From IMG/VR virus record IMGVR_UViG_3300044703_000135, positions 1-34,084 of that record: a stretch of DNA of 34,084 nt; one strand, 5' to 3'. This DNA is from a virus. This document shows, in pieces, positions 9,374 to 30,661 of this stretch (positions within the stretch are counted from its first letter, which is position 1; each line of letters starts with the position of its first letter). A program made the translations under genes and the position numbers. The notes beneath the pieces are model-generated. The model was not told the origin of the DNA, ran no database searches, and saw only the letters and a list, made by a program, of their open reading frames with translations.

Positions 9374-9663
9374 TATCGATCGGTCCTCAAATGCCGCCAG
9401 TCGGGATCGTTGAGCTTGCGCCGGATGAAGGCGCCGAATTCCTGCGAGGACATGCGCCAGACGTTGGCGCCCTCCTCGTTCAGCCACTTCACCAGCACGA
9501 CATTGGGGATGGTGGCGATGTGCCGCCCCCAATCGCTTTGCACCGGCCCGGCATTCTGCCGCGCCTTGTTCAGCTCGAGGATCGGCTCGACGTCTTGCAC
9601 GGTCTCGGCCGTGATGGTGCGCTCGCCGCGGTCGAGAAGCAGTCGTGTGACCGTGCCGCTCAT
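9373..9663 (-). CDS. Conserved-type phage protein, 96 aa
   Basis: A 96-residue charged protein. It begins MSGTVTRLLLDRGERTITAE and contains WGRHIATIPNVVLVKWLNEE and WRMSSQEFGAFIRRKLNDPDWR. It lacks membrane segments and low complexity. It lies between two small structural-type genes and the tail adaptor, with 1-base-shifted stop/start overlaps at both ends. This shape is common in rhizobial podovirus-like prophages, but I know no function for it. Confidence 0.65.
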   Translation of the reverse strand: MSGTVTRLLLDRGERTITAETVQDVEPILELNKARQNAGPVQSDWGRHIATIPNVVLVKWLNEEGANVWRMSSQEFGAFIRRKLNDPDWRHLRTDR

Positions 9664-9977
9664 CAGGCGAGCTCGGTCACCCAGAGCGTGCCGTCCGTCG
9701 CCGTGATGAGACCGCCGGTCGCGGCGCGGATGGCCGCGATCCGCTGGCCGGGACTGACCGTGACATATTCCGCGCTGCCGGCGGGCAGGAACGGATCGCC
9801 GGCGGTGGCGGTCTGCGCCCCGTCGCCGATCTTGATGTGACAGGCCGAGTTGGCGACCACGCGGATCTGGTAGGTCTGCGCGCCGAACGCAGTGGCGGCC
9901 GCCGCCGACGCGGCGGTATAGGCGACGGTCTGCGTCGTGCCGAACCGGCCGGATTTGACGCCGGATGTGACGCTCAT
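9663..9977 (-). CDS. Small head/tail protein, 104 aa
   Basis: 104 residues: a Ser/Thr/Ala-rich N-terminus, then beta strands YQIRVVANSACHIKIG, PAGSAEYVTVSPGQRIAAIRA and a C-terminal DGTLWVTELA. This is a jelly-roll-like small phage structural protein of the kind often found near the capsid gene. Its stop overlaps the start of the 96-aa gene. The exact role, decoration or head completion, is not determinable. Confidence 0.6.
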   Translation of the reverse strand: MSVTSGVKSGRFGTTQTVAYTAASAAAATAFGAQTYQIRVVANSACHIKIGDGAQTATAGDPFLPAGSAEYVTVSPGQRIAAIRAATGGLITATDGTLWVTELA

Positions 9978-9981
9978 GGCC

Positions 9982-10347
9982 TTAGCTCTTCCGGATCACG
10001 GCGAAGAACATCGCCGGACAGACGGTGGAGGACGCGCCGTCGGAGATGAATTCGATGACCTGGTCTTCGACCACCGTGTTGGCGGCGGTCGGGAGCGCGG
10101 TATCGACGTCACCGGCGACGGCGCCGGATTGGGAGATGGTCCAGGATCCGCCGGTGATTGCCGTTCCCGCGATCTTGCTGGTGACGGCGGAGTCGGCGAC
10201 GGTGATGGCGTTGTAGATCACCGAGCCGAGCTTGATGATCTTGCCGCGCACGGGCGCGACGGCAAAGGCGGAGCTTGGGGTGCTGACATCGGCCAGATGC
10301 GCCCAGACCACGACTTCGTTGAGAGGATGGTATTCGGGAAGTGCCAT
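9982..10347 (-). CDS. Head-decoration-like structural protein, 121 aa
   Basis: 121 residues, all beta-prone, with alternating hydrophobic strands (LNEVVVWAHLADVSTP, VRGKIIKLGSVIYNAITVA, SGSW-type segments and FFAVIRKS at the end). The position directly after the major capsid protein suggests a capsid decoration or minor structural role. The ATG at 10347 has GGAG eight bases upstream. It is separated from the capsid gene by 487 bases of repeat-rich sequence, unusual in this otherwise tightly packed block. Confidence 0.6.
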   Translation of the reverse strand: MALPEYHPLNEVVVWAHLADVSTPSSAFAVAPVRGKIIKLGSVIYNAITVADSAVTSKIAGTAITGGSWTISQSGAVAGDVDTALPTAANTVVEDQVIEFISDGASSTVCPAMFFAVIRKS

Positions 10348-10523
10348 GAGGGTGGCTCCAAAAAAGCGAGGGCGGCCCGATCAGGAGCCGCCCTCAGTTG
10401 GGGAGGAGGAGAAAGATTGAATCGAACGTGTCCCGGGCGCGGAGCAGCACGAGCCCATAAGCGCGCTGACGCGCGTCTTCGACGCACTAGGGGCGAAGTG
10501 ATGCGCTGCAGACCCAGTATCCC

Positions 10524-10615
10524 GGTTGCTTGATCAAAAGAAACCGGGGTCCCGGATCAGCAGTGCAGCGTTCCGCTATCGCTTCACGCTGCATTGCATC
10601 CGGGAAACGAGCGGA
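10524..10615. repeat. Palindromic intergenic repeat
   Basis: A short repeat with GC-rich inverted arms: CCGGGGTCCCGGATCAGCAG, then CAGTGCAGCG and CGCTGCATTGCATCCGGGA on the other arm. It resembles dispersed palindromic elements in bradyrhizobial intergenic regions. It sits between capsid and decoration-like genes. Confidence 0.5.
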
Positions 10616-10636
10616 GATGGACTGGGGTCGCTGCCC

Positions 10637-10755
10637 CCTTCTTCACCTCTCCCGCTTGCGGGGGAGGTCGCCGCGTAGCGGCGGGAGGGGGCATGTATAT
10701 TATGTGTGGCGTGCCCCCTCCCCACCCCTCCCCCGCAAGCGGGGGAGGGAGAAGA
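10637..10755. repeat. Large inverted repeat (CTCCCCC/GGGGGAG arms)
   Basis: The outer arms CTCCCGCTTGCGGGGGAG and CTCCCCCGCAAGCGGGGGAG enclose inner arms GGGAGGGGGCA and TGCCCCCTCCC around a short AT-rich loop (TGTATATTATGTGTGG). It could form a very stable hairpin in RNA on either strand. This is a host-type intergenic repeat inside the phage head operon. Confidence 0.65.
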
Positions 10756-10834
10756 AGAGCGCGCCGCTGCGCGATGCCAAACTCTTTACCTCCCCTGAAA
10801 GGGGGAGGGATGCACTCTGGATCGGCGGTGCTGA

Positions 10835-11791
10835 CTACGACACCGTCAGGTCGAACACGCCGCCGGAGGCCTTTTCGTTGCGGCTGACGAGGGCATATTC
10901 CGACAGCAGCTGCCGGCGTTCGCTGTCGCCGGTCTTGGCGAGCGGGACCGACACCATCTTGCGCCCGTTGAGATAGGCCACCGCCCACATGTCGCTTTGC
11001 AGCACCAGCGCGTCGCGCGCGCGCTGGAAGCGGTTCGGCACGACTTTGAGCGTGCCGAAATCCGATTCATAGGCGTCGACCGCAGCGGTGATCTTCCGCC
11101 GCTTGGTGTCCTCCGTCTGGGTGCCGCGGCCGGTGAACAGCGAGAACGCCTGCTTGTTGAAGCCGCCGACCATGACGGTGTCGGGCTTGCCGCCGGCATT
11201 CCATACTTTTTGCAACACGTCCTTGAGCTGGGATTCGGTAAACGCCCGCTGGGTGCCGTCGGTGCGCGTGCCGGTGCCGTCCGCCGCCGCCGGATCGACG
11301 CCCGACGCGCCTTTCGACGTGTTGGTCTTGAGCCAGGAGAGCACGGAAGCCGTGACACGCGCGGTCGCCGCCGCGCCGGCGTTCTTGGCCTGGTTGGTGC
11401 CAATGAGGATGCTTTCCATGTCCCGTTTCAATTCGAGACCCTTGAGCATTTCCTGATAGGCCAGCTCGTCGTCGCGGCCGGAATGCTCGACCGCCTGCTG
11501 CGTGCCGGTGACGCGCGCCACCTTGTCGGAGATCTGGCAGACATTGCCGAGCCGGACCGCGGCGGTGACCGCATCGGTGGTGGCGTCGTCGCCTTCCAGC
11601 ACCGCGTTCGCGGTGTCGACCGCGGCGAGCGCCTGGGTCTGCCATTCGTGCGAGACCGCCGTCGCCTTCTCGCGCTCGGCGGCGGTGATGAACGGCGTGT
11701 CGGAAGGATCGATACGATAGATGTCATCGGACAGGTCTTCCCTGTTGCCGACGGCCGAGTAGGTAGTGAAGGTATTGGTCGGAAGCGCCAT
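10835..11791 (-). CDS. Major capsid protein, SU10/DUF5309-like
   Basis: 318 residues starting MALPTNTFTTYSAVGNREDL. Further landmarks are LSDDIYRIDPSDTPFITAAE (residues 19-38), a sequence typical of the DUF5309/SU10 major capsid family with HK97 fold. NVCQISDKVARVTGTQQAV and GTNQAKNAG-like segments follow, and a C-terminal portion with FGTLKVVPNRFQRARDALVL and MWAVAYLNGRKMVSVPLA. It forms the icosahedral head. The scaffold gene lies just upstream (13 bases), the usual order. Translation is likely strong. The start at 11791 matches the family N-terminus; upstream reading is inside the scaffold gene. Confidence 0.85.
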   Translation of the reverse strand: MALPTNTFTTYSAVGNREDLSDDIYRIDPSDTPFITAAEREKATAVSHEWQTQALAAVDTANAVLEGDDATTDAVTAAVRLGNVCQISDKVARVTGTQQAVEHSGRDDELAYQEMLKGLELKRDMESILIGTNQAKNAGAAATARVTASVLSWLKTNTSKGASGVDPAAADGTGTRTDGTQRAFTESQLKDVLQKVWNAGGKPDTVMVGGFNKQAFSLFTGRGTQTEDTKRRKITAAVDAYESDFGTLKVVPNRFQRARDALVLQSDMWAVAYLNGRKMVSVPLAKTGDSERRQLLSEYALVSRNEKASGGVFDLTVS

Positions 11792-18997: not shown

Positions 18998-19419
18998 CGT
19001 TGATTCCTAAGGTGTCATCCACGCGAGCGCGCGGATTGAAGCGCCTGCTTGTCACGGCACGCCGGCGCGCTCCCTCTCCCCTGTGGGGAGAGGGTTGGGG
19101 TGAGGGGGTTCCGGCCTATCGATAGACCGTACGCCCTCACCCGCCTCGCCATAAGACATTATGGCGAGGCGACCTCTCCCACCGAACTCGGTTTACCCGA
19201 GTTCGGTGTATTGATTGCCGAAGTCGGATACATCCGACTTCGGCTGGAGAGGTGAAGTGCGATCGTGCGCTTGCTTGTTACGGCACGCTGGCGCGCTCCC
19301 TCTCCCCGGTGGGGAGAGGGTTGGGGTGAGGGGGTTCCAGCCTATCGATAGTCCGTACGCCCTCACCCGCCTCGCCATAAGACGTTATGGCGAGGCGACC
19401 TCTCCCACCGAACTCGGGT
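18998..19419. other. Gap filled by two copies of a host-type repeat
   Basis: No gene is supported here. The gap between the portal stop and the 139-aa gene is almost wholly made of two tandem copies of a repeat containing nested palindromes; the second copy runs on into the portal gene. Confidence 0.7.
19047..19257. repeat. Intergenic repeat unit, copy 1
   Basis: A 211-bp unit with several nested inverted repeats: CCTCTCCC...GGGAGAGG, CTCGCCATAAGACATTATGGCGAG, CCGAACTCGG...CCGAGTTCGG and CCGAAGTCGGATACATCCGACTTCGG (quoted in parts). It is nearly identical to copy 2, 226 bp to its right. Confidence 0.8.
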
Positions 19420-19484
19420 TTACCCGAGTTCGGAGTATTGATTGCCGAAGTCGGATACATCCGACTTCGGCTGGAGAGGTGAAG
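19273..19484. repeat. Intergenic repeat unit, copy 2, entering the portal gene
   Basis: A 212-bp second copy with the same nested palindromes, differing from copy 1 by scattered substitutions and one inserted G in CTCGGGTTTACCCGAG. Its right-hand 65 bases encode the last residues and the stop codon of the portal protein. Confidence 0.8.
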
Positions 19485-21690
19485 GGACCGGCTCGACGCC
19501 GATGACGCGGTTCTGGGCGTCGCGGATGACGCGTTTCGGTCCGCTGACCTGGCGCAGGGCGGCAAGCAACTCGCCGAACAGCGGCGACGGATCGAAGCCG
19601 GCCGCCGGCGGGGCGTCGGCGCCCTCGCCTTCCGCCGCGCTCTGTCCAGCCGCGGCGTGCATCGGCCGCGGCTTGAACACCTCGCCGATCAGCTTGCGGT
19701 CGTGCTCCTGCTTCTTCAGCTCGGCATCGAGCAGCTTGAGCTGGCGCTCGAGCTCGAAGCGCTGCTGCGCCAGCGCCATCTCCGATTCCACTTTCTTGTT
19801 CTGGGTCGCGATGTCGGTCTGCGCCTGCAGCTTCTCGAGCTCGGCGCGGAACTGCATTTCCGTGAGCCGCGGGTCCTGCTGCGGCGCCGGCGGCGGCTGG
19901 CCGGCGGGGTCGGTGAAGAACATGTCGGTGTTCTTCAGCTCCAGGATCTTCGCCACTTCTTTCGCCGAGTTATAAAGATTGTTGGGCGAGACTAGGTTGC
20001 TCATGCCCGCCGCCACCGCTTCCTTCTGCAGCCCGATCAGCGCCATGATCTGCGCCAAGCGCTCGGAGCGGCTGCCGGTGCCGAGCCCGACATTGATGGT
20101 CATGTCGTTGCGGGATTTCCATTCCCGCGGATCGACCGACACCCAGGTGTTGCGGAGGCGGACAGAGGCGGGCTTGGTTCCGTGCTTTCTAATGGTCCCG
20201 TGAAGGAGCGAGAACAAGTCCCGTATGCCCGTCTCCGCAAAGATGCGCGCGATCAGCTTCACCCGCGCCTGAGCCGCCGAGAATAATTGGTTGACCGCCG
20301 TGGCCGACTGGTTCTGCAGGGCGTTGGCGTCAATGCCCTGCCCCTGCCGGGTGACGCCGGTGCGCCATTCCCGCGTCATGTCCTGGTATTCGAGCAGCGG
20401 ATAGACATGGTTGCCGATGGTCGGCACCACCTGCCACTGGATGCCGCCCGGCTGCTTGGTGCGCACCACGCCGCCCGGGCGCGAGACCAACAGATCGTCA
20501 AGCGTCTGCTCGCTGGCGTGGGATTCCGCCACTTCCACGCGCGGATTGTTGGCGAGATAGGCGTTGTCCAATAGCGCGCGCAGCAGCGCGGTCTTGATGC
20601 GCTGGATATCCATCACCAGGTCGGCGATCGAGCGGCCGAAGAAGCGATGGGTGATGATCACCGGCGTCATGGCCGCGAACGGCACCATGTCCTGCCGCAC
20701 CACGTCGTCCTCGCCGTTGCGTCGCAGGATCTCGCTTTGGTCGCCGCCGGTGGTGACGCGATAGAGCGCCGGCTTGTCGTCGCCGTCGTAATCCAGCCGC
20801 ACATAATGTTCGGTGATGCGGATCAGGCGGTTGGAGCGGTTGGCGCCGTCATCGGCTTCCGCGCGCGCGCCTTCGTCCACCGTATCGCGCGCCTGGGATT
20901 CGCTGTTGCCGCTCGCGCTATCGGACGGCAGCCGCTTGACCTGCGCCGGCTCATAGCCCTGGCCGATCAGCTCGGCCTGCTCGCGCAGCACCTCGTGGAA
21001 GCAATAGCCGGCGTCGCAGATGCGCCGGGCATTGCGCGCGATGCCGAATTCCTCCGGCGGCACGCCTTCGACCCTGGCGCATTCGTAGGTGCGGCGCGTG
21101 ACCAGGGTCACGTCGTGCAGCTTCGCCTGCGGCGCATCCGGATCGTCCGGTGGGGCGCGCCAGTCCGGGTCGGGCCGTTCGCTGTGCTCGACGATCTCGA
21201 CTTCGGGATCGGAAAGCAGCAGCGCAAAGGCGTCGTCGGGCTGGTCGAAATAGGTCTCGCGCTCTTCCTCCTCTTTCGTCTCCCACCAGACCTTGACGAT
21301 GCCGACCTTGGAGAGGAGCGCATCCTTGATGAAGGAATAGAGCGTGAGGAAGCCCGGGTTCTTCTGCATGAAGACGTGGTTGACGTATTCCGTTTCCTGC
21401 AGGGCGGCGGCGACGTCCTCCGGCCCGACCGGCTCGAACTGCACCACCTCGTCGGAGCCGCAGAAGATCTCCATCAGCGGCGGCATCAGCCCTTCGATGG
21501 TGTCGGCCACATCGGTGGACACCGCCTTGGAGCGCCCATCCACCGGCGGCATGTCCTTCGACATGTCGCCGAGATAGTAGTCCATGGCGTCGCCGCGCTC
21601 CGCGGACAGCGTCGAGGAATTGGCCGACAGCGCAGCCTGCTTCTCCACCGCAAGCATGGCCTTGAGCGTGGACGACGAGATGCGGGGCAT
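19420..21690 (-). CDS. Portal protein
   Basis: 756 residues. The N-terminal two thirds match P22/SU10-type portal proteins: YYLGDMSKDMPPVDGRSKAV (residues 38-57), TDVADTIEGLMPPLMEIFCG, SFIKDALLSKVGIVKVWWET, ITHRFFGRSIADLVMDIQRI and ALLRALLDNAYLANNPRVEV. A Gln/Glu-rich coiled-coil C-terminus follows (about 620-690), typical of the barrel or crown. Twelve subunits form the DNA channel and dock terminase and tail adaptor. The last 20 or so residues (PLQPKSDVSDFGNQYSELG) are encoded by an intergenic repeat that replaced the native end. It follows the metallopeptidase-like gene by 3 bases. Confidence 0.9.
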   Translation of the reverse strand: MPRISSSTLKAMLAVEKQAALSANSSTLSAERGDAMDYYLGDMSKDMPPVDGRSKAVSTDVADTIEGLMPPLMEIFCGSDEVVQFEPVGPEDVAAALQETEYVNHVFMQKNPGFLTLYSFIKDALLSKVGIVKVWWETKEEEERETYFDQPDDAFALLLSDPEVEIVEHSERPDPDWRAPPDDPDAPQAKLHDVTLVTRRTYECARVEGVPPEEFGIARNARRICDAGYCFHEVLREQAELIGQGYEPAQVKRLPSDSASGNSESQARDTVDEGARAEADDGANRSNRLIRITEHYVRLDYDGDDKPALYRVTTGGDQSEILRRNGEDDVVRQDMVPFAAMTPVIITHRFFGRSIADLVMDIQRIKTALLRALLDNAYLANNPRVEVAESHASEQTLDDLLVSRPGGVVRTKQPGGIQWQVVPTIGNHVYPLLEYQDMTREWRTGVTRQGQGIDANALQNQSATAVNQLFSAAQARVKLIARIFAETGIRDLFSLLHGTIRKHGTKPASVRLRNTWVSVDPREWKSRNDMTINVGLGTGSRSERLAQIMALIGLQKEAVAAGMSNLVSPNNLYNSAKEVAKILELKNTDMFFTDPAGQPPPAPQQDPRLTEMQFRAELEKLQAQTDIATQNKKVESEMALAQQRFELERQLKLLDAELKKQEHDRKLIGEVFKPRPMHAAAGQSAAEGEGADAPPAAGFDPSPLFGELLAALRQVSGPKRVIRDAQNRVIGVEPVPSPLQPKSDVSDFGNQYSELG

Positions 21691-21693
21691 GAT

Positions 21694-22584
21694 CTAATCG
21701 AAAAATATCGGAGGCATTGGAGACGGAATCCGGAGTGGATAAAGCGGTTCGAAAGTATCGGAATCCAAGATGATTTGCCGTTCGTCCGGAACTTCCTGGT
21801 CGAGCCAAGGTGGACGCTCAAGGCGCTGCGCAGGGGACATTTTCAAGCGGCGTTCGGTAAGCGTTGCTTCTTCCTCCCCGGCCAGCTCCCGATATGCGGC
21901 TTCCGCATTCCTTTGCCGGGCTGGACCGACCGCGCGGTCCCGGTCGATAAAGTACTGCATCAAATTGACGCTACCCCCTGGTGCAAAACCTTCTCGATAT
22001 TGAACGGCGTGGCCCAATTCGTGAACTACTGCTTTGAGACGCTCTTCGGGATCAAGCGCTGCCGAGATCTCGATTGTTTCAGGTTCGTCCCTATACGGCC
22101 GTATATAGCGAGCCGAAGCACCGGACATGCCTGCTACAATCCGGACCTGAATCTTCGCCAGGTCGGGATGAGCTTTGAAAAGACGTGGATGGTTGAGCAG
22201 TTCGCCGATCGTATTGCCGCCGGGATTCAGCGTCGCGTCATGATCTGAAACCTCGAACCGCGGTTTCCCGTCCGCAAGTCGCAACCATCCCGTCGACGAC
22301 AGGACTCTATCGCGGGGAAGGCCCTTACTTTCCATCTCCTCGGCCCGCTCGAGCGCTGCATGATCGGCCGTTTGAGCATTACGGCCCACAAAGGTTACCG
22401 GTGTGAAGCGCAGGAGATTGTCGCTCCATGCCACTGCCGGGTTGACCGTCGGCTGGCCAAAGTCACCCCGTCCCATTTCAAAGCGAGAGCTTTCATTTTG
22501 TAGCGGCACGCGCTCCCACGACTCCGGTTCGGGCGCTTTCCTCATCAGAGATTCGAGCAACAGCGGATTGCTAATTATCGTCAT
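21694..22584 (-). CDS. Metallopeptidase-like phage protein (HELGH), copy 1
   Basis: 296 residues. AVVHELGHAVQYREGF (residues 185-200) is a zinc-metallopeptidase HExxH motif. Around it are ETIEISAALDPEERLK upstream and a conserved helix GEEEATLTERRLKM downstream that could supply a third ligand. It resembles the LPD23-like domain of large polyvalent phage proteins (family name from memory). The C-terminus ends with a conserved acidic/Pro strand (RQIILDSD...PPIFFD). It is a diverged paralog of 24970-25794, with shared GGNTIGELLNHP-type segments. It lies between the portal gene and the secreted-protein array. It may process a virion protein; substrate unknown. Confidence 0.7.
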   Translation of the reverse strand: MTIISNPLLLESLMRKAPEPESWERVPLQNESSRFEMGRGDFGQPTVNPAVAWSDNLLRFTPVTFVGRNAQTADHAALERAEEMESKGLPRDRVLSSTGWLRLADGKPRFEVSDHDATLNPGGNTIGELLNHPRLFKAHPDLAKIQVRIVAGMSGASARYIRPYRDEPETIEISAALDPEERLKAVVHELGHAVQYREGFAPGGSVNLMQYFIDRDRAVGPARQRNAEAAYRELAGEEEATLTERRLKMSPAQRLERPPWLDQEVPDERQIILDSDTFEPLYPLRIPSPMPPIFFD

Positions 22585-22841: not shown

Positions 22842-23237
22842 ATGAATTCGAAGTGTCTGGCTTTTGCTACCAGCCTGCTTTTATTGAACGCCGTTCCGTC
22901 CGCTGCCGAGCGCGGACGCGACTACATGTGGTTGCCCGAGACGTCACTCACGTTCGAGCGTAATTTCGAGCCGTTCGCACGTGTCGATACAATGGACGCT
23001 TGCCGGGACATTTGTCTGAAAGATGAGCGTTGCAGCGGCTGGACCTATTATCATTCCGACTTCGTCGGAGCCGGGCCGCGCGAAACCTGGGAGCCGTTGC
23101 GCCGCACGTGCGTGGTCGGCGCGGGTATCAAAGAGCGCAATTTCAGGGGTGCGCCCGGCCGCACCTCCGGTGTAATCACGCTATCCCGCGAGTGCGCGCC
23201 GCTTCCCGGAGTCGATCCCCGTTCCTACATGTGTTGA
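22842..23237 (+). CDS. Secreted PAN/Apple-like protein, copy 1
   Basis: 131 residues with a signal peptide (1-22, ending PSAAE). The mature part has a PAN/Apple-like core: TSLTFERNFEPFARVD, then CRDICLKDERCSGWTYY (Cys54, Cys58, Cys64), RETWEPLRRTC (Cys90) and GRTSGVI, with Cys118 and a C-terminal Cys131. Six mature Cys suggest three disulfides. PAN domains bind proteins or glycans outside the cell. The start at 22842 has GGAGGG five bases upstream. It points away from the metallopeptidase-like gene and is the first of three tandem plus-strand paralogs. A role in lysogen surface properties is inference. Confidence 0.75.
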   Translation: MNSKCLAFATSLLLLNAVPSAAERGRDYMWLPETSLTFERNFEPFARVDTMDACRDICLKDERCSGWTYYHSDFVGAGPRETWEPLRRTCVVGAGIKERNFRGAPGRTSGVITLSRECAPLPGVDPRSYMC

Positions 23238-23298
23238 GCGCACATCCGCGTCCGCTTTGCTTCTTAAGCGTCGCGCGATGATTGCCCCGGAATCAAAA

Positions 23299-23324
23299 GC
23301 CCGGCTCGGTGTCACCGGCCGGGC
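23299..23324 (+). terminator. Hairpin, possible terminator after PAN gene 1
   Basis: GCCCGGCTCGGT / ACCGGCCGGGC can form a long, strong stem after the stop codon of the first PAN gene. It is followed by only a weak T-run (GCAATTCTT), so terminator strength is uncertain. Near-identical hairpins occur at 24115-24140 and 28403-28427. Confidence 0.5.
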
Positions 23325-23436
23325 GCAATTCTTGGATTTGTATTTCCCGAATTATCCGCGTCGCGCGGTTTCGTCAAACGCGAAGTCTTCGCCCCTGTGA
23401 ACTTCTGTCGATGAATGACGTATGCGCTGCACTTCG

Positions 23437-23560
23437 CGTCATTCCGGGGCGCGAGCGCAGCTCGCGAACCCGGAATCCATCACGGCGATGTACCACAATC
23501 ACAACGACACGGAGTTATGGATTCCGGCTCTCGGGCATTCCTGCCCTCGGCCGGAATGAC
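23437..23560. repeat. Bradyrhizobial-type palindromic repeat, copy 1
   Basis: The arms CGTCATTCCGGGGCGCGAGC and GGCCGGAATGAC, with inner arms ACCCGGAATCCAT and ATGGATTCCGG, form a large imperfect palindrome. This is a well-known type of dispersed repeat in Bradyrhizobiaceae, supporting the host guess. It recurs at 24253-24376. Confidence 0.7.
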
Positions 23561-23605
23561 AGCTCGACGCGTATTTGCACAAGGGACGGATATTGCTCCG
23601 CCTTA

Positions 23606-23660: not shown

Positions 23661-24053
23661 GTGATCTCCAAGCGCCTTGCTGTTACCTGCCTTCTGGTTT
23701 CTTTGAAAAGCATCTGTCCGGCGGATGCGCAGGATCTCTTTGACCCCTCATGGCAGCCCGACACCTCATTCATTTTTGAGCGGACTTTTGAGCCATTCGC
23801 CCGTGTCGACAACCCGCAAGCCTGCCGGGAAATCTGCCAAAAGGATAGGCGCTGCACCCGCTGGACTTACTACCACCCGGACTTCGTCGGGATAGGTCCG
23901 CGGGAGACCTGGGAACCGTTGCGGACAACGTGTGTCATTGGAGCAGGTCTGAAGGAACGGATTCCGGGTCACGCTGGTCGCACGTCGGGCCAGATCGCTC
24001 GTCGCGAGTGCCCGCCGCTATCCGGAGTAGACCCCCGTTCCTACGTGTGTTGA
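23661..24053 (+). CDS. Secreted PAN/Apple-like protein, copy 2 (GTG start)
   Basis: 130 residues with a signal peptide (1-23, ending ADAQ). The core is CREICQKDRRCTRWTYY (Cys55, Cys59, Cys65), RETWEPLRTTC (Cys91), GRTSGQI, Cys117 and C-terminal Cys130. It is the closest paralog of copy 1, with start-to-start distance 819 and stop-to-stop 816. The GTG at 23661 has GGGGAGG five bases upstream; an ATG just before it gives only a two-codon frame. Tandem duplication followed by divergence is clear. Binding partner unknown. Confidence 0.75.
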   Translation: MISKRLAVTCLLVSLKSICPADAQDLFDPSWQPDTSFIFERTFEPFARVDNPQACREICQKDRRCTRWTYYHPDFVGIGPRETWEPLRTTCVIGAGLKERIPGHAGRTSGQIARRECPPLSGVDPRSYVC

Positions 24054-24114
24054 GCGCACATCCGCGTCCGCTTCGCTTCTTAAGCGCTGAGCGATGATTG
24101 CCTCGGAATCAAAA

Positions 24115-24140
24115 GCCCGGCGCGGTGTCACCGGCCGGGC
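24115..24140 (+). terminator. Hairpin, possible terminator after PAN gene 2
   Basis: GCCCGGCGCGGT / ACCGGCCGGGC stem with a short loop, 62 bases after the stop codon. It is the duplicate of the hairpin at 23299-23324. Confidence 0.5.
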
Positions 24141-24252
24141 GCAATTCCTGGATTTGTATTTTCCGAATTATCCGCGTCATGCAGTTCTGTCAAAGGCGAA
24201 GTCTTTGCACCTGTGAACTTCCTGCCGATGAATGACGTATGCGAAGCACTTC

Positions 24253-24376
24253 GCGTCATTCCGGGGCGCGAGCGCAGCTCGCGAACCCGGAATCCATAAT
24301 CATCGGCAATCCGAAATCGGAAAGACCGCGATCTGGATTCCGGCACTCGGGCACTTCGTGCCCGCAGCCGGAATGA
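24253..24376. repeat. Bradyrhizobial-type palindromic repeat, copy 2
   Basis: The outer arms CGTCATTCCGGGGCGCGAGC and GCCGGAATGAC match the element at 23437-23560, but the centre differs. It is part of the tandemly duplicated unit. Confidence 0.7.
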
Positions 24377-24414
24377 CAGCTCGGCGCGTATTATTCATGG
24401 ATTATGCAGCCATA

Positions 24415-24443
24415 TTGCAACCTGAATTGTACGCATCAATAGG
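24415..24443 (+). promoter_or_regulatory. Candidate promoter of PAN gene 3
   Basis: TTGCAA (24415-24420), 17-base spacer, AATAGG (24438-24443), preceded by CATA as in the others. Confidence 0.45.
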
Positions 24444-24513
24444 CGGCGTTCAGGGAGGGAGGCACACGATGATCGCGGTGCGTTTTCGTGCTGAAACGTC
24501 GACGGAGGACGAT

Positions 24514-24933
24514 ATGAGGCTGACATACACTGCTTTCGCCTGCGTCTTGGCTCTCTCAACATCTTTTCTTCCGGCCGGCGCAGAGCACAGGGGAGGCTCC
24601 CGCTGGCTGCCCGACACCGCCCTGACATTCGATCAAGAACTTGAACCGGCTGCGCCTGTGGATGCGCTGCTAGATTGCAAAAGGATCTGCGAGAAGGACG
24701 AGCGTTGTGACGGCTGGACTTTTTTTCCTCGCAACTTTGTCCGCGCCGACGGGCGTCCGGAGAGGTGGGAAGCGTTGCGCGGGGCCTGTGTCATGGGATC
24801 CGGCGTGAGAGAGTGGAGTCGGGACTCCGGCCTGCGCAAGGGCATTTTGTACAGTGCTCCCGGCCGCATCTCGGGGGTGATCATCCCCCCGCTCGGCTGC
24901 CCGGAGAACCTCGAGCCAGGAGCCATGTGCTGA
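24514..24933 (+). CDS. Secreted PAN/Apple-like protein, copy 3
   Basis: 139 residues from the ATG at 24514, with GGAGGACGAT before it and a good signal peptide (1-23, ending PAGAE). An upstream ATG at 24469, also with a GGAGGGAGG site, would add MIAVRFRAETSTEDD, which is homologous to copy 4's start but spoils the signal. The core is CKRICEKDERCDGWTFF (Cys55, Cys59, Cys65), ERWEALRGAC (Cys92), then an inserted segment (EWSRDSGLRKGILY), GRISGVI, Cys129 and terminal Cys139. It is the most diverged six-Cys copy and meets the second metallopeptidase-like gene tail to tail, 36 bases apart. Confidence 0.7.
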   Translation: MRLTYTAFACVLALSTSFLPAGAEHRGGSRWLPDTALTFDQELEPAAPVDALLDCKRICEKDERCDGWTFFPRNFVRADGRPERWEALRGACVMGSGVREWSRDSGLRKGILYSAPGRISGVIIPPLGCPENLEPGAMC

Positions 24934-24969: not shown

Positions 24970-25794
24970 CTATTCGAAAAACACGGGCGGTTTGGGAAAC
25001 GGAATAGGCAGAGTCGAGCCGTCGCGCGACCGCTCCAAAACGATTTGGCGCTCACGCGCGATCGGCTCGTCGTTCCATGGGCTAACTCGGAGCCTATCAG
25101 CCGGAAGCATGTCCAAACGCTTTGCGGCAGTTTGTGCTTCGACCTCACCAGCGATCATATTATAGACTCCTAGCGCTTCTTCAGGGCCGAATGGGCCGAG
25201 TCTGCCCACGCGAGCGATTTGCCGGCGCATCCAATCCGGACCGGTGCCTGGTGAAAAGCCTTCTCTGTTCTGGATCACGTGTTGCACTTCATGGATCAGA
25301 TTCGAATGGAGCTCATCATCGGTGCTGTGCGGCGAAAGCTCGATTCTTTCTGGCCCACCGCTGCCGGACTGGTAATAGGCCGCGTGCCCGCGAGGCAGTC
25401 TATCGTTGTACACAATGGGAATATCCGCGATGTCATAATTGGCGTGGAGTTCTGGATGGTGGAGGGATTCTCCCAAGGTTCTGCCCCCTCGGGTAAATTT
25501 TGAGGTGTCGTCCGAAATCTCCCATCTCCAGTGGCGGTCGCGCCCCCTTCCCCATCCCGTGTCCTCCAAAATATAATCGGCGATATCGCCAGCGGCCTCC
25601 CTCTCCTTGGCGCTCCGTAGCGCATCCATGTTGGCGTTCTTGGCTTTGCGGCCGGCAAAAAGAGCTTGGGCCATCAGGTCGGACAGGCGGAAACCCTCTG
25701 AGGCGGTAAACTGGGCCGTCTCGGGTTGTCCCGCAGGAAACTCTTCGTCCGGCAGTCCGGCCGATTCCCACGGGTTGGGCAAAAATGGAATCAT
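24970..25794 (-). CDS. Metallopeptidase-like phage protein (HEVQH), copy 2
   Basis: 274 residues from the ATG at 25794 (MIPFLPNPWESAGLPDEE), which overlaps the terL stop (TGATG). NLIHEVQHVIQNREGF (165-180) keeps the HExxH pair and downstream NREGF of copy 1. RTLGESLHHPEL, ERIELSPHSTDDELHS and GEVEAQTAAKRLDMLPADRL match copy 1 in order, as does the end (RQIVLERS...PPVFFE). The pair is clearly paralogous but well diverged, with copy 1 between the array and portal. The order terL, this gene, then portal is probably ancestral; copy 1 now occupies the portal-side place. Substrate unknown. Confidence 0.7.
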   Translation of the reverse strand: MIPFLPNPWESAGLPDEEFPAGQPETAQFTASEGFRLSDLMAQALFAGRKAKNANMDALRSAKEREAAGDIADYILEDTGWGRGRDRHWRWEISDDTSKFTRGGRTLGESLHHPELHANYDIADIPIVYNDRLPRGHAAYYQSGSGGPERIELSPHSTDDELHSNLIHEVQHVIQNREGFSPGTGPDWMRRQIARVGRLGPFGPEEALGVYNMIAGEVEAQTAAKRLDMLPADRLRVSPWNDEPIARERQIVLERSRDGSTLPIPFPKPPVFFE

Positions 25795-27362
25795 CACACG
25801 GCTCCTGTTTGCGGATATTGGATCGTGCGGGCAAAGCCCGCGTCGGGGGACACCGGCTCGGCAAAGGTCAAAGCCACCGCGTCCCACTCGTCGGGGCTCG
25901 GCACGCCGCGCCGTCGCATGTCGTCCTTGCGTTCCAGCACCAGCCGCGTCTGGCTGTCCCAGCGGTAGCTCGGGCCGCAGGCGTCGGCCTGCAAACTGTC
26001 GGAATCCGGGATCTGCGCGCCGGCGGGATCTTCCAGCCACTCTTTCGATTTCATCCACATCTCGGCGCGGCGGTTGAGCGGACCGCCGTTCGGCTTGCCG
26101 TGTTGGTCGCGCGGCGGCGGCTCGACCGGCGCGGAGCCGAAATTCACCGGCCGCACGATGCCGCCGTAGCCCTGCTCCTTCAGCCGGTCATAGACGCCGG
26201 CGCCGACGCCGCCGACGTCGACGAACACGCGCTTGGGATCGTCCTTGTCGATCACCTGCCGCAGCCAGCCGGCCGCCTGCATGGTATCGAGCTTGCTGCG
26301 GCTCTCGACCTGCAACAGCTTGCGCCCGCGCCGCCATGCCATCGCGGCGCGATCGGTTCCCATCCAGGCCGGATCGAAGCCGATTACCAAAGGCCCGGAC
26401 GGCTCGCAGGTGAACTTGCGCGCGCGCGCGACCAGCGCCGGCGCGATGTAGCTGTCGTGCCCGCTCATCTGGAACGCCTCGGCCGCGCTTGCGGGATATT
26501 CCTGCTTGAACAGGACCGGGTCCTTCAGCTCGCCGATCTTGCCGCGGCGCCAGGCGAGCTGCGCGCGATCGAGCCCGTAGAGCCGCGCGTATTCGCGCTC
26601 CTCCTCGTCGGGCGCAAAATCCGTCGGCGGCGGCTTGCGGTATTCCTCCTGCCAGTACCAGGGCACGAAGATCGCGATGTAATCGTTGCGGCCGGTCTCG
26701 GCGTCGCGCCACATCTGGTGGAAGAAATTGCCGACGCCGTTGGCGGTGCTTTCCAGCACGATCTCGCTGCCCGCTTCGTCCGGCACCGCCTGCAGCACGC
26801 CGGCGGCGTGGGTGTCGGCATAGGGCCAGAACGCCACTTCCGAGCCGTGAAACAACTGGATGGTGGAGGAGCGCCCGACCCCGCGGGTGCGCGCGGTGCC
26901 GACCTTGTAGCCGCTGTCGAGCCGGTCGAAATTCAGCTCCTTGGCATTGGCCGCGCCGGTGGAAGGCTTCAGCGGCGCGGGGCAATGCTCGTGAAAGCGA
27001 TTGACCATCTCGAACAGGTTCTGCGTCGCCGCGTCCTCATGGGTGAGGATGAAAGTGCGCAGGCCGAAACTGTGGCTGGTGCGGTGATAGAACCGCCCGC
27101 CGACATAGGTGGAGCAGCCCTGCTGCCGGCCCTTGAGGATGAGCGCGCGCACTTTGCCGAGCGCGGCCTTCTGCCGCTCGAGCTGTTCGTGGATGTGCCG
27201 CTGCGCCTTGTTCAGAATGAGCGGCGCGATCTCGCCCGCTTTGCTCCTGATCCGCAGGCAGGCGGCGGCGTAGTACGGGAAGTCAGCGCGCAGGCTCTGC
27301 CGGATGTCGCGCTCGCGGTCCGTCAAGCTGCGCAAGGGTGTCCTCGTGTCGCAAGCCCGCAT
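25794..27362 (-). CDS. terL: Terminase large subunit
   Basis: 522 residues. The ATPase part has a Walker A-like KGRQQGCST (77-85), a Walker B region near GSEVAFWP (173-180) and a coupling motif ESTANG (204-209). The nuclease part (RNase H-like) has Asp330 in IGFDPAWMGTD and Asp382 in VFVDVGGVG, and late acidic residues in SPDEWDAVAL. It packages DNA into the procapsid through the portal. The start is uncertain: the ATG at 27362, or a TTG about 30 bases downstream (before RSLTDRERD) with GAGGAC upstream, a site also kept in the terL remnant near 28.1 kb. The complete gene follows only a 3' fragment of terS. Confidence 0.9.
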   Translation of the reverse strand: MRACDTRTPLRSLTDRERDIRQSLRADFPYYAAACLRIRSKAGEIAPLILNKAQRHIHEQLERQKAALGKVRALILKGRQQGCSTYVGGRFYHRTSHSFGLRTFILTHEDAATQNLFEMVNRFHEHCPAPLKPSTGAANAKELNFDRLDSGYKVGTARTRGVGRSSTIQLFHGSEVAFWPYADTHAAGVLQAVPDEAGSEIVLESTANGVGNFFHQMWRDAETGRNDYIAIFVPWYWQEEYRKPPPTDFAPDEEEREYARLYGLDRAQLAWRRGKIGELKDPVLFKQEYPASAAEAFQMSGHDSYIAPALVARARKFTCEPSGPLVIGFDPAWMGTDRAAMAWRRGRKLLQVESRSKLDTMQAAGWLRQVIDKDDPKRVFVDVGGVGAGVYDRLKEQGYGGIVRPVNFGSAPVEPPPRDQHGKPNGGPLNRRAEMWMKSKEWLEDPAGAQIPDSDSLQADACGPSYRWDSQTRLVLERKDDMRRRGVPSPDEWDAVALTFAEPVSPDAGFARTIQYPQTGAV

Positions 27363-27438
27363 CGCCGTCGTGATCGACGGCGCTGAGATCGGGCAGCGTC
27401 TTCTTCAGCAGCGCCAGGCTGGCGGTGACCTGCGCCGA
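27263..27438. repeat. Direct repeat of the terS-terL junction, copy 1
   Basis: About 176 bp nearly identical to 28061-28237. It carries the start of terL and, in the overlapping frame, the last 50 or so codons of terS. The right boundary is near GCGCCGA, after which the two sites differ completely. Confidence 0.75.
27283..27438 (-). pseudogene. 3' fragment of terminase small subunit gene
   Basis: Translates as a truncated terS end (AQVTASLALLKKTLPDLSAV, then DHDGDAGLRHEDTLAQLDGP and a stop at 27283). It lacks the N-terminal DNA-binding half and any start codon. The intact gene is at 28082-28363. The fragment overlaps the start of terL and marks the edge of a duplication that now has PAN gene 4 in its centre. 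Confidence 0.7.
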
Positions 27439-27502
27439 GACTCTTACGGCTGAAATGCCGCCAAGCGCGCCGCCTCATGTCAACGGGTGGATAATCGCCA
27501 TA

Positions 27503-27531
27503 TTGCAACCTGAATTCTACGCACCAATAGG
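27503..27531 (+). promoter_or_regulatory. Candidate promoter of PAN gene 4
   Basis: TTGCAA (27503-27508), 17-base spacer, AATAGG (27526-27531), within the shared block ATATTGCAACCTGAATTCTA, closely matching that of PAN gene 3. Confidence 0.5.
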
Positions 27532-27556
27532 CGGTGTATTCAGGAGGGTGGATACC

Positions 27557-27946
27557 ATGATCGCGAAGCGCTTCGCTTTGGCCTTCGTTTCAGTTCTTTC
27601 CGGTATCTCCATGGCCGATGCTCAGAAACGGCTCTCGGGTTGGGAGCCTGACACCTCCTTGAGATTTGAACGAACTCTTGAACCGTCCGTCTATGTAGAG
27701 ACACCGGAGGCGTGCCGAGAGATTTGCTTGAAGGACAAGCGTTGTACCGGATGGACTTATTATCACCCGGAGTTCACCGGTGAGGGAGCGCGGGAGACTT
27801 GGGAACCGCTGCGGGGCGCCTGTTTCATGGGAACGGCCATAGGGCGGAATATGGAGAAAGCTCCCGGACTTACCTCCGGCATGGTCAGGGAGGTTTGGGA
27901 CTGCGCGCCGCCGAGCATCAAAGGACACCAGCAATATGTGTGTTGA
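27557..27946 (+). CDS. Secreted PAN/Apple-like protein, copy 4
   Basis: 129 residues with a signal peptide (1-22, ending MADAQ). The core is CREICLKDKRCTGWTYY (Cys53, Cys57, Cys63), RETWEPLRGAC (Cys89), LTSGMV, Cys116 and terminal Cys129. The ATG at 27557 has AGGAGGGTGG upstream. It lies between the two copies of the terS-terL junction repeat, divergent from terL and convergent with the terL remnant and terS. So it sits inside the packaging operon, on the opposite strand. Function beyond probable extracellular binding is unknown. Confidence 0.75.
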   Translation: MIAKRFALAFVSVLSGISMADAQKRLSGWEPDTSLRFERTLEPSVYVETPEACREICLKDKRCTGWTYYHPEFTGEGARETWEPLRGACFMGTAIGRNMEKAPGLTSGMVREVWDCAPPSIKGHQQYVC

Positions 27947-28010
27947 GGAGTCCTCCGCTTCAACTCGCTCAAAGTGCGATCCATCCGGCGAGCGACCATC
28001 CGCAATTTAA

Positions 28011-28130
28011 TCGGGCGAAGCCCGCGTCGGGGACGCCGGCTCGGCAAAGGTCAAAGCTAGACGGCGACGTCGTGCGGGAAGTCAGCGCGCAGTCTTTGCC
28101 GGATGTCGCGCTCGCGGTCCGTCAAGCTGG
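28011..28130 (-). pseudogene. terL remnant with large internal deletion
   Basis: The right part reads SLTDRERDIRQRLRADFPHD then a stop, matching the terL N-terminus. The left part (28011-28058) matches the terL 3' end (ALTFAEP...). The roughly 470 codons between them are missing. It still follows terS exactly as terL should, with the same GAGGAC-CTTG start context. This is direct evidence for a second, deleted terL copy. Confidence 0.75.
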
Positions 28131-28237
28131 GCAAGAGTGTCCTCGTGCCGCAAGCCCGCGTCGCCATCGTGCTCGACGGCGCTCAGATCGGGCAGCGTCT
28201 TTTTCAGCAGCGCCAGGCTGGCGGTGACCTGCGCCGA
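28061..28237. repeat. Direct repeat of the terS-terL junction, copy 2
   Basis: The 177-bp partner of 27263-27438, containing the 3' half of the intact terS gene and the start of the terL remnant. Scattered substitutions show that the duplication is not recent. Confidence 0.75.
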
Positions 28238-28363
28238 TTCCATCTCGCATTCGCCGTGGATGAAGGATTGCAGCCGCCGGATGATGCGGGCGGTCTGGAT
28301 GCCGGCGCGTACCTGTTTGTTGTTGTCGTTTTTGCGTCTGACCGGCTTGCTGCGTCTTGCCAC
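28082..28363 (-). CDS. terS: Terminase small subunit
   Basis: 93 residues from a GTG at 28363 with GAGGAG upstream. The N-terminus is basic (MARRSKPVRRKNDNNKQVRA), a helix-rich middle follows (TARIIRRLQSFIHGECEMES) and then a helical oligomerisation-like part (QVTASLALLKKTLPDLSAV). It would bind the packaging start site and activate terL. The identification rests on position directly before terL (and its remnant) and general features of small terminases. Its 3' half is repeated at 27263-27438. Confidence 0.65.
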   Translation of the reverse strand: MARRSKPVRRKNDNNKQVRAGIQTARIIRRLQSFIHGECEMESAQVTASLALLKKTLPDLSAVEHDGDAGLRHEDTLAQLDGPRARHPAKTAR

Positions 28364-28402
28364 GTCGCTCCTCGGTGGATGGCGGCCGCTCCGGAATCAA
28401 AA

Positions 28403-28427
28403 ACCCGGCGCGGTGTCCCGGCCGGGC
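28403..28427 (+). terminator. Third copy of the PAN-type hairpin
   Basis: ACCCGGCGCGGTGTCCCGGCCGGGC can fold as the hairpins after PAN genes 1 and 2. The flanks (CCGGAATCAAAA before; GACGCAATTTTCGGATTTG after) also match. It now lies upstream of terS with no PAN gene directly before it, so it is probably a relic of another duplication. Confidence 0.45.
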
Positions 28428-28617
28428 AACTGTTGGACGCAATTTTCGGATTTGCATTGTCCGAATTATCGGCGCCGCTCCATTCTGTCAAACGCGATGT
28501 GCCCGCGCCTGTGAATGTGGAGGGTCAATGTTGGTGAAGGAATATGGCGCGAGCGGCGAATACCGGATACGCTCTTGTTCGTCTCGGTTTTACTCAATAG
28601 AAAACAGGGAGATGAAA

Positions 28618-28974
28618 ATGTCCCGTCAAAAAAGGTCCATCGGCGTCGCCTTTTCCCTCTTTAGTTTTTTGTCCGTCCTCACCGTTATCGGTTTGAGCGC
28701 GGAACGGCTTAAAGCAGACAGCCCGGTCGTGGCGGCAGCAGCCGCAACCACCCCTGCGTCGATGGAAATTCAAGCGATCGCGGACGATTTCGCCATGCGG
28801 CACCCTGGCGTTCGCGAATATCATCCGGTGGCGCCCGCCGCGCGGCAACGGTTCGCGCAGACGCGCGAGCAATGCATTGAGGCTTGCTTGGGACCTTACG
28901 GGGATTGCATGAGAGCCGGCCACTCGCAAGCACAGTGCAATCAGGTTATCAGATCGTGTCGCGCTGCTTGTTAG
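28618..28974 (+). CDS. Secreted six-cysteine protein
   Basis: 118 residues from the ATG at 28618 (AGGGAG six bases upstream). The signal segment lies at about 12-33 (VAFSLFSFLSVLTVIGLSAE). A linker region follows, then a C-terminal domain with six Cys spaced C-x3-C-x6-C-x9-C-x6-C-x3-C, a symmetric pattern that suggests a disulfide-stapled helical hairpin. It is not a PAN domain. It lies on the plus strand, divergent from terS, among the PAN genes, so it probably belongs to the same secreted cargo. I do not recognise a named family. Confidence 0.6.
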   Translation: MSRQKRSIGVAFSLFSFLSVLTVIGLSAERLKADSPVVAAAAATTPASMEIQAIADDFAMRHPGVREYHPVAPAARQRFAQTREQCIEACLGPYGDCMRAGHSQAQCNQVIRSCRAAC

Positions 28975-29106: not shown

Positions 29107-29421
29107 ATGAATCCGCGCGGCTTTGCATTTGCGTTTGCCTTGTTGCCAGCGTTTGCGACAGCCGTCCTTCCGGCCCAGGCCCAGGGCGTCCGAACCTCCA
29201 CATGGGAGGCGGATACGTCGATGCGTTTTCAGGACAACATCATGGTGCTTTCCCGCAGCGTCAAGACGGCGGAGGCCTGCCGCGACATCTGCCTGGGAAA
29301 CAGGCTCTGCACGGCGTGGAGCTATTTCGGCGCATTCCCGGACGCCCATTGCTTCATCGGCGCGGGCGTTAAGGGCCGGACGTCGGGCGCCGCCGGCAAA
29401 ACGTCGGGAGAGATCAAGTAG
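29107..29421 (+). CDS. Secreted PAN/Apple-like protein, copy 5 (short form)
   Basis: 104 residues from the ATG at 29107 (an ATG at 29098 would add three residues). Signal peptide 1-26 (ending PAQAQ). The core is CRDICLGNRLCTAWSYF (Cys58, Cys62, Cys68), then a short FPDAHCFIGAG (Cys82) and GKTSGEIK at the end. It lacks the RETWEPLR segment and the two C-terminal Cys, so it resembles a minimal PAN_4-type domain with two disulfides. The preceding sequence VRTSTWEADTSMRF is shared with copy 6. No TTGCAA promoter block is evident here. Confidence 0.7.
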   Translation: MNPRGFAFAFALLPAFATAVLPAQAQGVRTSTWEADTSMRFQDNIMVLSRSVKTAEACRDICLGNRLCTAWSYFGAFPDAHCFIGAGVKGRTSGAAGKTSGEIK

Positions 29422-29502
29422 CGCAAGCTGCGCGAGGGAGCGGGGCGTAACCCTGGCTATGTGCGGCGCGTCTCGAACCCTCATGGTGAGGAGGGTCGCC
29501 AC

Positions 29503-29615
29503 TACCGCATTTCGAAATACTCACGAGACACCAAGCTCGCGCTTGCGGTCCGCAAGCCTGCCGCGCGGGCATGGCTCGCCATGCGCGGCGACACGCGCCA
29601 CCGCCCGCGCCTGTG
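29503..29615 (-). pseudogene. Duplicated 3' fragment of the 175-aa gene
   Basis: About 110 bp that aligns with the 3' end of the gene at 30134-30661; CCGCGCGGGCATGGCTCGCC is identical at both sites, followed by GCGCCACCGCCCGCGCC. It has no start and no full frame. PAN gene 6 lies exactly between fragment and intact gene. Confidence 0.65.
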
Positions 29616-29680: not shown

Positions 29681-30043
29681 ATGAGCCGGAAGCATTTCGC
29701 CTTCGCCTTCATCTCGATGCTTGCAATCAGCCATTGGCCCGCCGGTGCGCAGGAGGTGCGAACGTCGACGGTGGAGCCCGACACCTCGCTGACTTTCAAC
29801 CGATATTTCGAGCCGTTTGCTCGCGTCGACACCCCGCAGGCCTGCCGCGACATCTGCCTGAAGGACCGACGCTGCACCGGCTGGACTTACTATCATCCGA
29901 GCTTCGTCGGCTCGGGACCGCGGGAGACCTGGGAAACGTTGCTGCGCACCTGCGTTATCGGAGCCGGCCTCAAGCATCGGTGGTCGGGCGATGCGCGCGG
30001 CCGCACAGCCGGAGAGATCAGGTCGCGCCCCGGAGGCGTGTGA
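29681..30043 (+). CDS. Secreted PAN/Apple-like protein, copy 6
   Basis: 120 residues from the ATG at 29681 (GGAGGGTGGC before it). Signal peptide 1-24 (ending PAGAQ). The core is CRDICLKDRRCTGWTYY (Cys55, Cys59, Cys65), RETWETLLRTC (Cys91) and GRTAGEI. It ends without the two C-terminal Cys of copies 1-4. An overlapping frame on the same strand runs on far upstream but codes only for Arg-rich noise there. It meets the 175-aa phage gene tail to tail. Confidence 0.75.
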   Translation: MSRKHFAFAFISMLAISHWPAGAQEVRTSTVEPDTSLTFNRYFEPFARVDTPQACRDICLKDRRCTGWTYYHPSFVGSGPRETWETLLRTCVIGAGLKHRWSGDARGRTAGEIRSRPGGV

Positions 30044-30133: not shown

Positions 30134-30661
30134 CTACCGCAGCCCGAAATGCTTCACCAGCGCGCTGAGCCCGCGCTTGAGATCGGCCAGCCCGCCGCGC
30201 GGGCATGGCTCGCCATGCACGGCGACCCGCGCCACCGCCCGCGCCGCCTTCTGTCCCGCTTCGAACACCGCCGCGACGGCCGTGTCGTAGCGCTCCTTGC
30301 GCTTGCGGCATTCGCATTCGATTGCCGTGCCCGGCGGAGGCCGCCGGCAGATCTCCGGCGCGCAGGGATAGCCCTTGCCGGAGCCCGACATGATCGAGGG
30401 CGTGCCGATGGATGCGCGATATTGCCCGACGATGTAAGCGTAGCGCTGCCCGGCTTCGTACTGCGCATCGGTGATGACGTTGATCAGGTTGAGCGCGCCG
30501 AACGGCGTGTCGGCCTTCTGGTCGAGCCGCACCGGCTCGGGCAGCCAGCGGCGGTGCGGCTGCTGCGCGGCGAGCGCGCGGTAATCGACCTTGACCCGCA
30601 CCAGCTCTCCGCTCGGATGGCGGGGGCCGGCCAGTCGCTTGCGGCCTCGTCGTCGTGCCAT
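30134..30661 (-). CDS. Phage protein of unknown function, 175 aa
   Basis: 175 residues with a basic N-terminus (MARRRGRKRLAGPRHPSGEL). Middle segments follow (NLINVITDAQYEAGQRYAYI) and a Cys-containing basic part CECRKRKERYDTAVAAVFEA. It ends LADLKRGLSALVKHFGLR. It lies between the replication-organiser-like gene and terS, where rhizobial prophages often carry such a gene; I know of no function. Its start is at the stop of the upstream gene. Its last 110 bases are duplicated at 29503-29615. Confidence 0.6.
   Translation of the reverse strand: MARRRGRKRLAGPRHPSGELVRVKVDYRALAAQQPHRRWLPEPVRLDQKADTPFGALNLINVITDAQYEAGQRYAYIVGQYRASIGTPSIMSGSGKGYPCAPEICRRPPPGTAIECECRKRKERYDTAVAAVFEAGQKAARAVARVAVHGEPCPRGGLADLKRGLSALVKHFGLR

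Follow-up and report, generated by a model that had tools for sequence, protein, structure and literature searches.

A direct repeat of the terS–terL junction brackets a PAN-domain gene (PAN4) in the window, that is, the whole 34,084-base record IMGVR_UViG_3300044703_000135, leaving an intact terS beside a broken terL on one side and a broken terS beside an intact terL on the other. We read this arrangement, with a probability of about 0.58, as a mosaic joint of two related phages or prophages, produced by recombination at mismatched positions and followed by a later deletion.

Genome context

The window is an IMG/VR-type virus contig and comes from a soil-type bacterial virus. The minus strand carries late genes in a P22-type order (tail, scaffold and portal families, terL), and DnaA-like and repressor-like genes lie at the right end. 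The plus strand contributes six PAN-domain genes scattered among these, together with a single Cys-rich gene of secreted type (Table 1). A plus-strand methyltransferase gene (PF08242) at 2652–3461 also stands amid opposite-strand genes and is likely a further cargo gene. At the 3' end of the portal gene, a 218-nt tandem repeat with 96% identity was observed (19041–19257 and 19267–19484), the copies of which are closer to each other than those of the terS–terL repeat.

Table 1. Features of the packaging region and its PAN genes (window coordinates).
Feature	Position	Strand	Evidence or remark
Portal, one frame in the window	19420–21690		
LPD23 peptidase-like gene 1, abuts portal	21694–22584	−	37% identical to gene 2
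PAN1	22842–23237	+	PF14295
PAN2	23661–24053	+	PF14295
Module copies downstream of PAN1 and PAN2	23284–23401 and 24104–24217		
Ghost PAN start (leader plus first codons) ahead of PAN3	24409–24485	+	84% to PAN4 leader
PAN3	24514–24933	+	PF14295, under curated cut-off
LPD23/DUF6782 peptidase-like gene 2, overlaps terL stop	24970–25794	−	PF18838, 2.5e-16
terL, intact, 522 aa	25794–27362	−	phrog_2, 7.5e-32; 80 relatives kept
Repeat copy A: terS 3' fragment into intact terL	27260–27438	−	Match to copy B
Joint, mid-terS (copy A side)/PAN4 leader	27438/27439		Identity to copy B stops at 27438/28237
PAN4 leader	27439–27556	+	Core 27497–27573 like the PAN2 leader and the leader of the ghost start ahead of PAN3
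PAN4, 129 aa, signal-peptide-like N terminus, PAN_4 domain	27557–27946	+	PF14295, 8.9e-8
terL 3' remnant, codons 497–512, one frameshift, fused to 5' remnant	28012–28057	−	94% to 25828–25874
Repeat copy B: terS 3' end and 34 codons of dead terL, start ACG	28059–28237	−	92% to 27260–27438
terS, intact copy, 93 aa, GTG start	28082–28363	−	Open frame; 3' end is junction copy B
terS upstream module (TTGACA-N15-GATAAT followed by a T-run hairpin)	28388–28515	−	
Cys-rich secreted-type gene	28615–28974	+	
PAN6	29107–29421	+	
3'-end remnant of gene 30134–30661	29502–29611	−	83% to 30134–30245; brackets PAN7
PAN7	29681–30043	+	

Structure of the terS–terL repeat

Self-BLAST aligned 27260–27438 with 28059–28237 as an ungapped direct repeat of 179 nt (92.2% identity, 14 mismatches, E 3e-70), the last 34 nt of which were identical between the copies. 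PAN4, on the plus strand, sits between them. A second match (25828–25874 with 28012–28057; 47 nt, 94%, one gap) corresponded to the 3' end of terL. On the copy A side, in-frame stops lie upstream of codon 43 of the terS fragment, and the terL that follows (27362–25794) is full length, with relatives aligning across residues 4–520 at approximately 75% and a match to the PHROG terminase large subunit (phrog_2). On the copy B side, the terS frame (28363–28082) is open and shares 36–40% identity with terS-like frames in the related contigs L064 and L047. Its terL is dead: ACG replaces the ATG start, the 5' part spans approximately 34 codons from the ATG position (23 if counted from the likely TTG start at 27329), and the sequence resumes only at codon 497 (25874) and ends at codon 512, with a one-base deletion that shifts the frame. 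Approximately 1,385 nt of the terL interior and the final 11 codons are gone. No remnant of the peptidase-like gene was found beside the terL remnant in the window self-comparison.

The repeat and its intact and broken copies are thus confirmed as real and homologous, as the preliminary description had proposed for a 176-bp repeat around PAN4 with intact terS on one side and a 3' terS fragment followed by intact terL on the other. Its view of a duplicated junction in which the second terL lost its interior, leaving one working copy of each gene, is likewise supported. The terL remnant was indeed a fusion of 5' codons to the 3' end of the gene, but the 5' part comprises about 34 (or 23) codons rather than the 25 given, and the 3' part stops short of the gene end.

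Divergence between the copies

Across the 38 terS codons compared (43–80), we counted 8 mismatches between the two copies. One of these was non-synonymous and 7 were synonymous, compared with 27% synonymous expected (P 0.0006). We also derived a 40% null, in which the truncated copy drifts freely (25% synonymous) and the constrained copy adds its synonymous changes; against this null, the window alone gave P 0.0085. Two related contigs carry comparable pairs. L050 has terL over query residues 33–520 and a second 3' part, with 18 of 27 mismatches synonymous over 215 codons. In L068, a second terS–terL comes after a terS-like frame and associated terL pieces, and the terL pieces of this contig had 11/15 and 7/12 synonymous mismatches. 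We excluded the terS part of L068 (12/22 synonymous) from the pool on account of a 7-nt deletion that disturbs it. Pooling the window, L050 and the L068 terL pieces yielded 43 synonymous mismatches out of 62 (P 2.8e-6 against 40%). Codons 12–34 of the dead terL in copy B had 1 synonymous and 5 non-synonymous differences and look unconstrained. A further contig, L016, was rejected as a clean parallel, since its second terL end was too decayed for the test and its signature was unclear.

Since the differences are mostly synonymous, the truncated copies would have diverged mainly while still functional, before truncation. Although the counts are small, the data fit better with copies that diverged as working genes, as if they came from different phages. 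Alternatively, copy A could have been frozen by a constraint at the DNA level, such as a pac site inside terS, with copy B evolving as a terS gene. The pac site of P22 is located within terS (PMC9611059).

PAN genes

In a Pfam search, PAN1, PAN2 and PAN4 scored 30.5–32.5 bits against PF14295 (cut-off 27), PAN6 was barely over the PAN_2 cut-off, and PAN3 was below all cut-offs. Ratios of dN/dS among the PAN genes were 0.17–0.65, with high and often saturated dS, suggesting divergence under purifying selection. Between PAN4 and all other PAN genes of the window, pS was 0.53–0.72; judged by this divergence, none of them gave rise to PAN4 by recent copying, and PAN4 is much older than the repeat. 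The units of PAN1 and PAN2 are arranged in tandem (922 nt, 75%), and their identity rises from approximately 68% in the coding part to approximately 90% in the 3' flank, a step that appears to mark blocks with different histories, as in recombined blocks.

The PAN genes had no match in IMG/VR (searched with a single sequence and with an alignment), INPHARED or PLSDB, and 397 genomes of the order of a host MAG returned generic PAN domains only (best E 8e-6). The structure model was poor (pLDDT 58.8). A literature search turned up no publication linking PAN domains to phages that carry terminase genes. No consensus promoter of the PAN cargo was found, and terminator-like sites were about as frequent as expected (9 vs 8.4). 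A strong long palindrome lies between PAN genes at 23435–23580 and 24250–24385 (fold z-score −4.7) and resembles the intergenic repeats of chromosomes. A 43-nt piece of it was absent from 297 genomes of that MAG's order, so that the palindrome did not identify the host.

Other brackets and the terS upstream module

The 3' end of gene 30134–30661 is repeated across PAN7, which is enclosed by an end-duplication bracket of a similar kind. PAN1–3 are probably enclosed likewise, by the two LPD23 peptidase-like genes, of which one overlaps the terL end and the other abuts the portal gene; an LPD23 tree left their sister status unresolved. The brackets vary by site in size (110–179 nt) and identity (83–92%). 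In L016, a bracket surrounds a gene whose amastin-like match is weak and falls below the cut-off.

The minus-strand module of the terS upstream region recurs 3' of PAN1 and PAN2, and was not found ahead of terS in relatives. Its pattern (TTGACA-N15-GATAAT and a T-run hairpin), which was chosen post hoc, had 4 matches against 0.8 expected, and 2 of 100 shuffles had as many.

Gene order in relatives

Relatives (80 kept) shared at most 78% terL protein identity with the window. terS overlaps terL in L006, L011, L086 and Pseudoalteromonas phage H6/1, and terL lies within 10 nt of the portal gene in L006, L007, L010, L013 and L046. In H6/1, the nearest named record, terS, terL and portal are contiguous. 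A profile built from the window's own PAN genes detected none in the relatives. The comparison with relatives lacking PAN4 that had been suggested earlier showed a contiguous, PAN-free terS–terL–portal order. In other relatives, 0.2–4.8 kb separate terL from the portal gene, which marks this interval as a cargo site in the group; in the window it holds 4.1 kb. No close relative was found in IMG/VR, GTDB genomes, INPHARED or PLSDB, where sampling is thin, and neither parent of the proposed joint was found.

Several relatives differ in ways of their own. The terL–portal interval of L019 encodes a PKD/Ig-domain protein of 667 aa that has a signal-like start (9384–11387). Region 3082–8019 of L050 contains cargo 3' of terL, then the second terL 3' part, and finally frames that resemble, by eye, an FkbM-type methyltransferase and a glycosyltransferase; this order suggests another cargo-bearing joint. 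Approximately half of 58 relatives have a portal gene broken into two frames near residue 172–190 (numbering of the window portal), among them L011, L020, L022, L025, L073, L118, L132, L133, L136, L138, L141, L143, L144 and L151. The N part (approximately 160–210 aa) ends in a stop and the C part has possible starts of its own; the halves meet in a stop–start overlap in L011, L136, L141 and L151, and can lie as much as 1.7 kb from each other, separated by other frames. A literature search found no paper on split portals.

Origin of the joint

In the proposed sequence of events, recombination at mismatched positions would have joined two related phages or prophages. Parent A would have contributed the left side, at 27438 and below (the terS 3' half, terL, peptidase-like gene 2 and the late genes), and parent B the right side, at 27439 and above (PAN4, the terL remnant, terS and the upstream module). 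The product would take its terS from B and its terL from A, and the overlap would be visible as the diverged direct repeat around PAN4. From the redundant terL of B, the 1.4-kb interior would have been deleted, before or after the joining. The B terL remnant has more neutral-looking changes than the copy A terS fragment, a weak hint that the B terL was perhaps the first to break, as could have happened in a defective prophage. The recombinant would be viable, with the terS of B and the terL of A whole and the remainder redundant. Since viability needs one whole copy of each essential gene, partial duplications would survive such events and deletions would not. From this pattern we infer that there were two parents, in what order the events took place and that the split terS/terL pair is functional.

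A joint of two phages is preferred over duplication within one genome because the copies seem to have diverged mainly before truncation. It also agrees with the age of PAN4, the missing peptidase remnant, the contiguous order in relatives, the other brackets and the step in the PAN1/PAN2 units. Against it stand the small number of informative mismatches in the window (8), the alternative of a DNA-level constraint on copy A, the unconstrained look of the first terL codons in copy B, the failure to find either parent, the unclear signature of L016 and the 12/22 of the L068 terS part. The preliminary description had instead proposed a tandem duplication that included PAN4 and the peptidase-like gene, a version that the divergence of PAN4 and the lack of a peptidase remnant do not support. 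A broader form, in which a PAN–terL–terS unit was duplicated in one phage and then underwent reciprocal loss, perhaps as one of several such events that built the PAN array, seems rather unlikely to us. The tandem PAN1/PAN2 units speak for it, as does the uniform polarity of every bracket. The 3' flanks of PAN1 and PAN2 carry the terS upstream module, so that an old unit could have been PAN–terL–terS–module, and the 84% identity of the PAN4 leader to the ghost leader before PAN3 is the sole hint of the unit first proposed. However, the parts of such a unit diverged unequally (the pS values among PAN genes far exceed 8 mismatches in 38 terS codons), and the decayed copy retains terS, terL ends and PAN but nothing of the peptidase-like gene. 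If the terS fragment of copy A were as old as the repeat, it should also have gathered neutral changes, which it lacks. Moreover, recombination should collapse long direct repeats within a genome before they become 8% diverged.

PAN4 might also have entered together with the terL ends and the terS 3' end as one cassette that replaced the 3' end of terS with its own, through homologous or site-specific recombination there. The whole target gene, with its displaced 3' end left on the far side, would suit such an entry, as would the same bracket at gene 30134/PAN7 and in L016. We nevertheless regard it as improbable: no integrase or att core was seen between the repeat copies (though the contig may be incomplete at its ends), the brackets differ in length and identity from place to place, and the terL deletion would require a separate step. 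An assembly chimera of two metagenome strains is more improbable still, even though this is an IMG/VR-type contig, two copies at 92% could represent two strains, and the end of the repeat is identical. The terS fragment gives way to non-terS sequence at 27439, and at 28057 the two terL ends meet directly. Both joints therefore call for a real molecule and would not arise from k-mer switching alone, and like structures occur in the separate contigs L050 and L068.

The case is one of known phage mosaicism with cargo genes, unusually legible, rather than a novel type of element. Such mosaicism is mostly inferred from genome comparisons after the joints were tidied, whereas here the joint, which lies in the virus's most essential pair of genes, is untidied and still shows the origin of each half. 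With related contigs sharing the pattern, it becomes testable that survivors of random recombination keep overlapping copies and that cargo genes ride on the overlaps. As a tentative and rather speculative extension, the group may repeatedly capture cargo at terS–terL–portal through end-duplicating joints that never break essential genes, and the retained terS 3' half may add a second pac site.

Comparison with known systems

The window shares with the P22-type packaging locus of H6/1 the gene order, the terS/terL overlap and the portal and scaffold families. It differs in that its terS and terL are parted by PAN4 and remnants, and in its 4.1-kb terL–portal insert. The e14 element integrates at icd and replaces the 3' end of the gene. 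As there, a gene end is duplicated on either side of the insert, but no integrase or att core was seen in the window insert.

Morons are extra genes inserted between phage genes (Juhala et al. 2000, as described in PMC3029335). Like them, the extra PAN genes lie on the strand opposite to the late genes and between genes that are contiguous in relatives; L006, L007, L010, L013, L046 and H6/1 have no extra gene at the locus. Unlike morons, the PAN genes of the window are bracketed by diverged copies of neighbouring phage genes and form an array of six paralogues, with promoters and terminators of their own as a candidate feature only. Mosaic joints made by illegitimate recombination are known from tailed phages (PMC3029335). 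The window breakpoint resembles these in having no extended homology that we could see, with unrelated DNA on one side, but its joint overlaps, leaving a truncated and an intact copy of both terS and terL.
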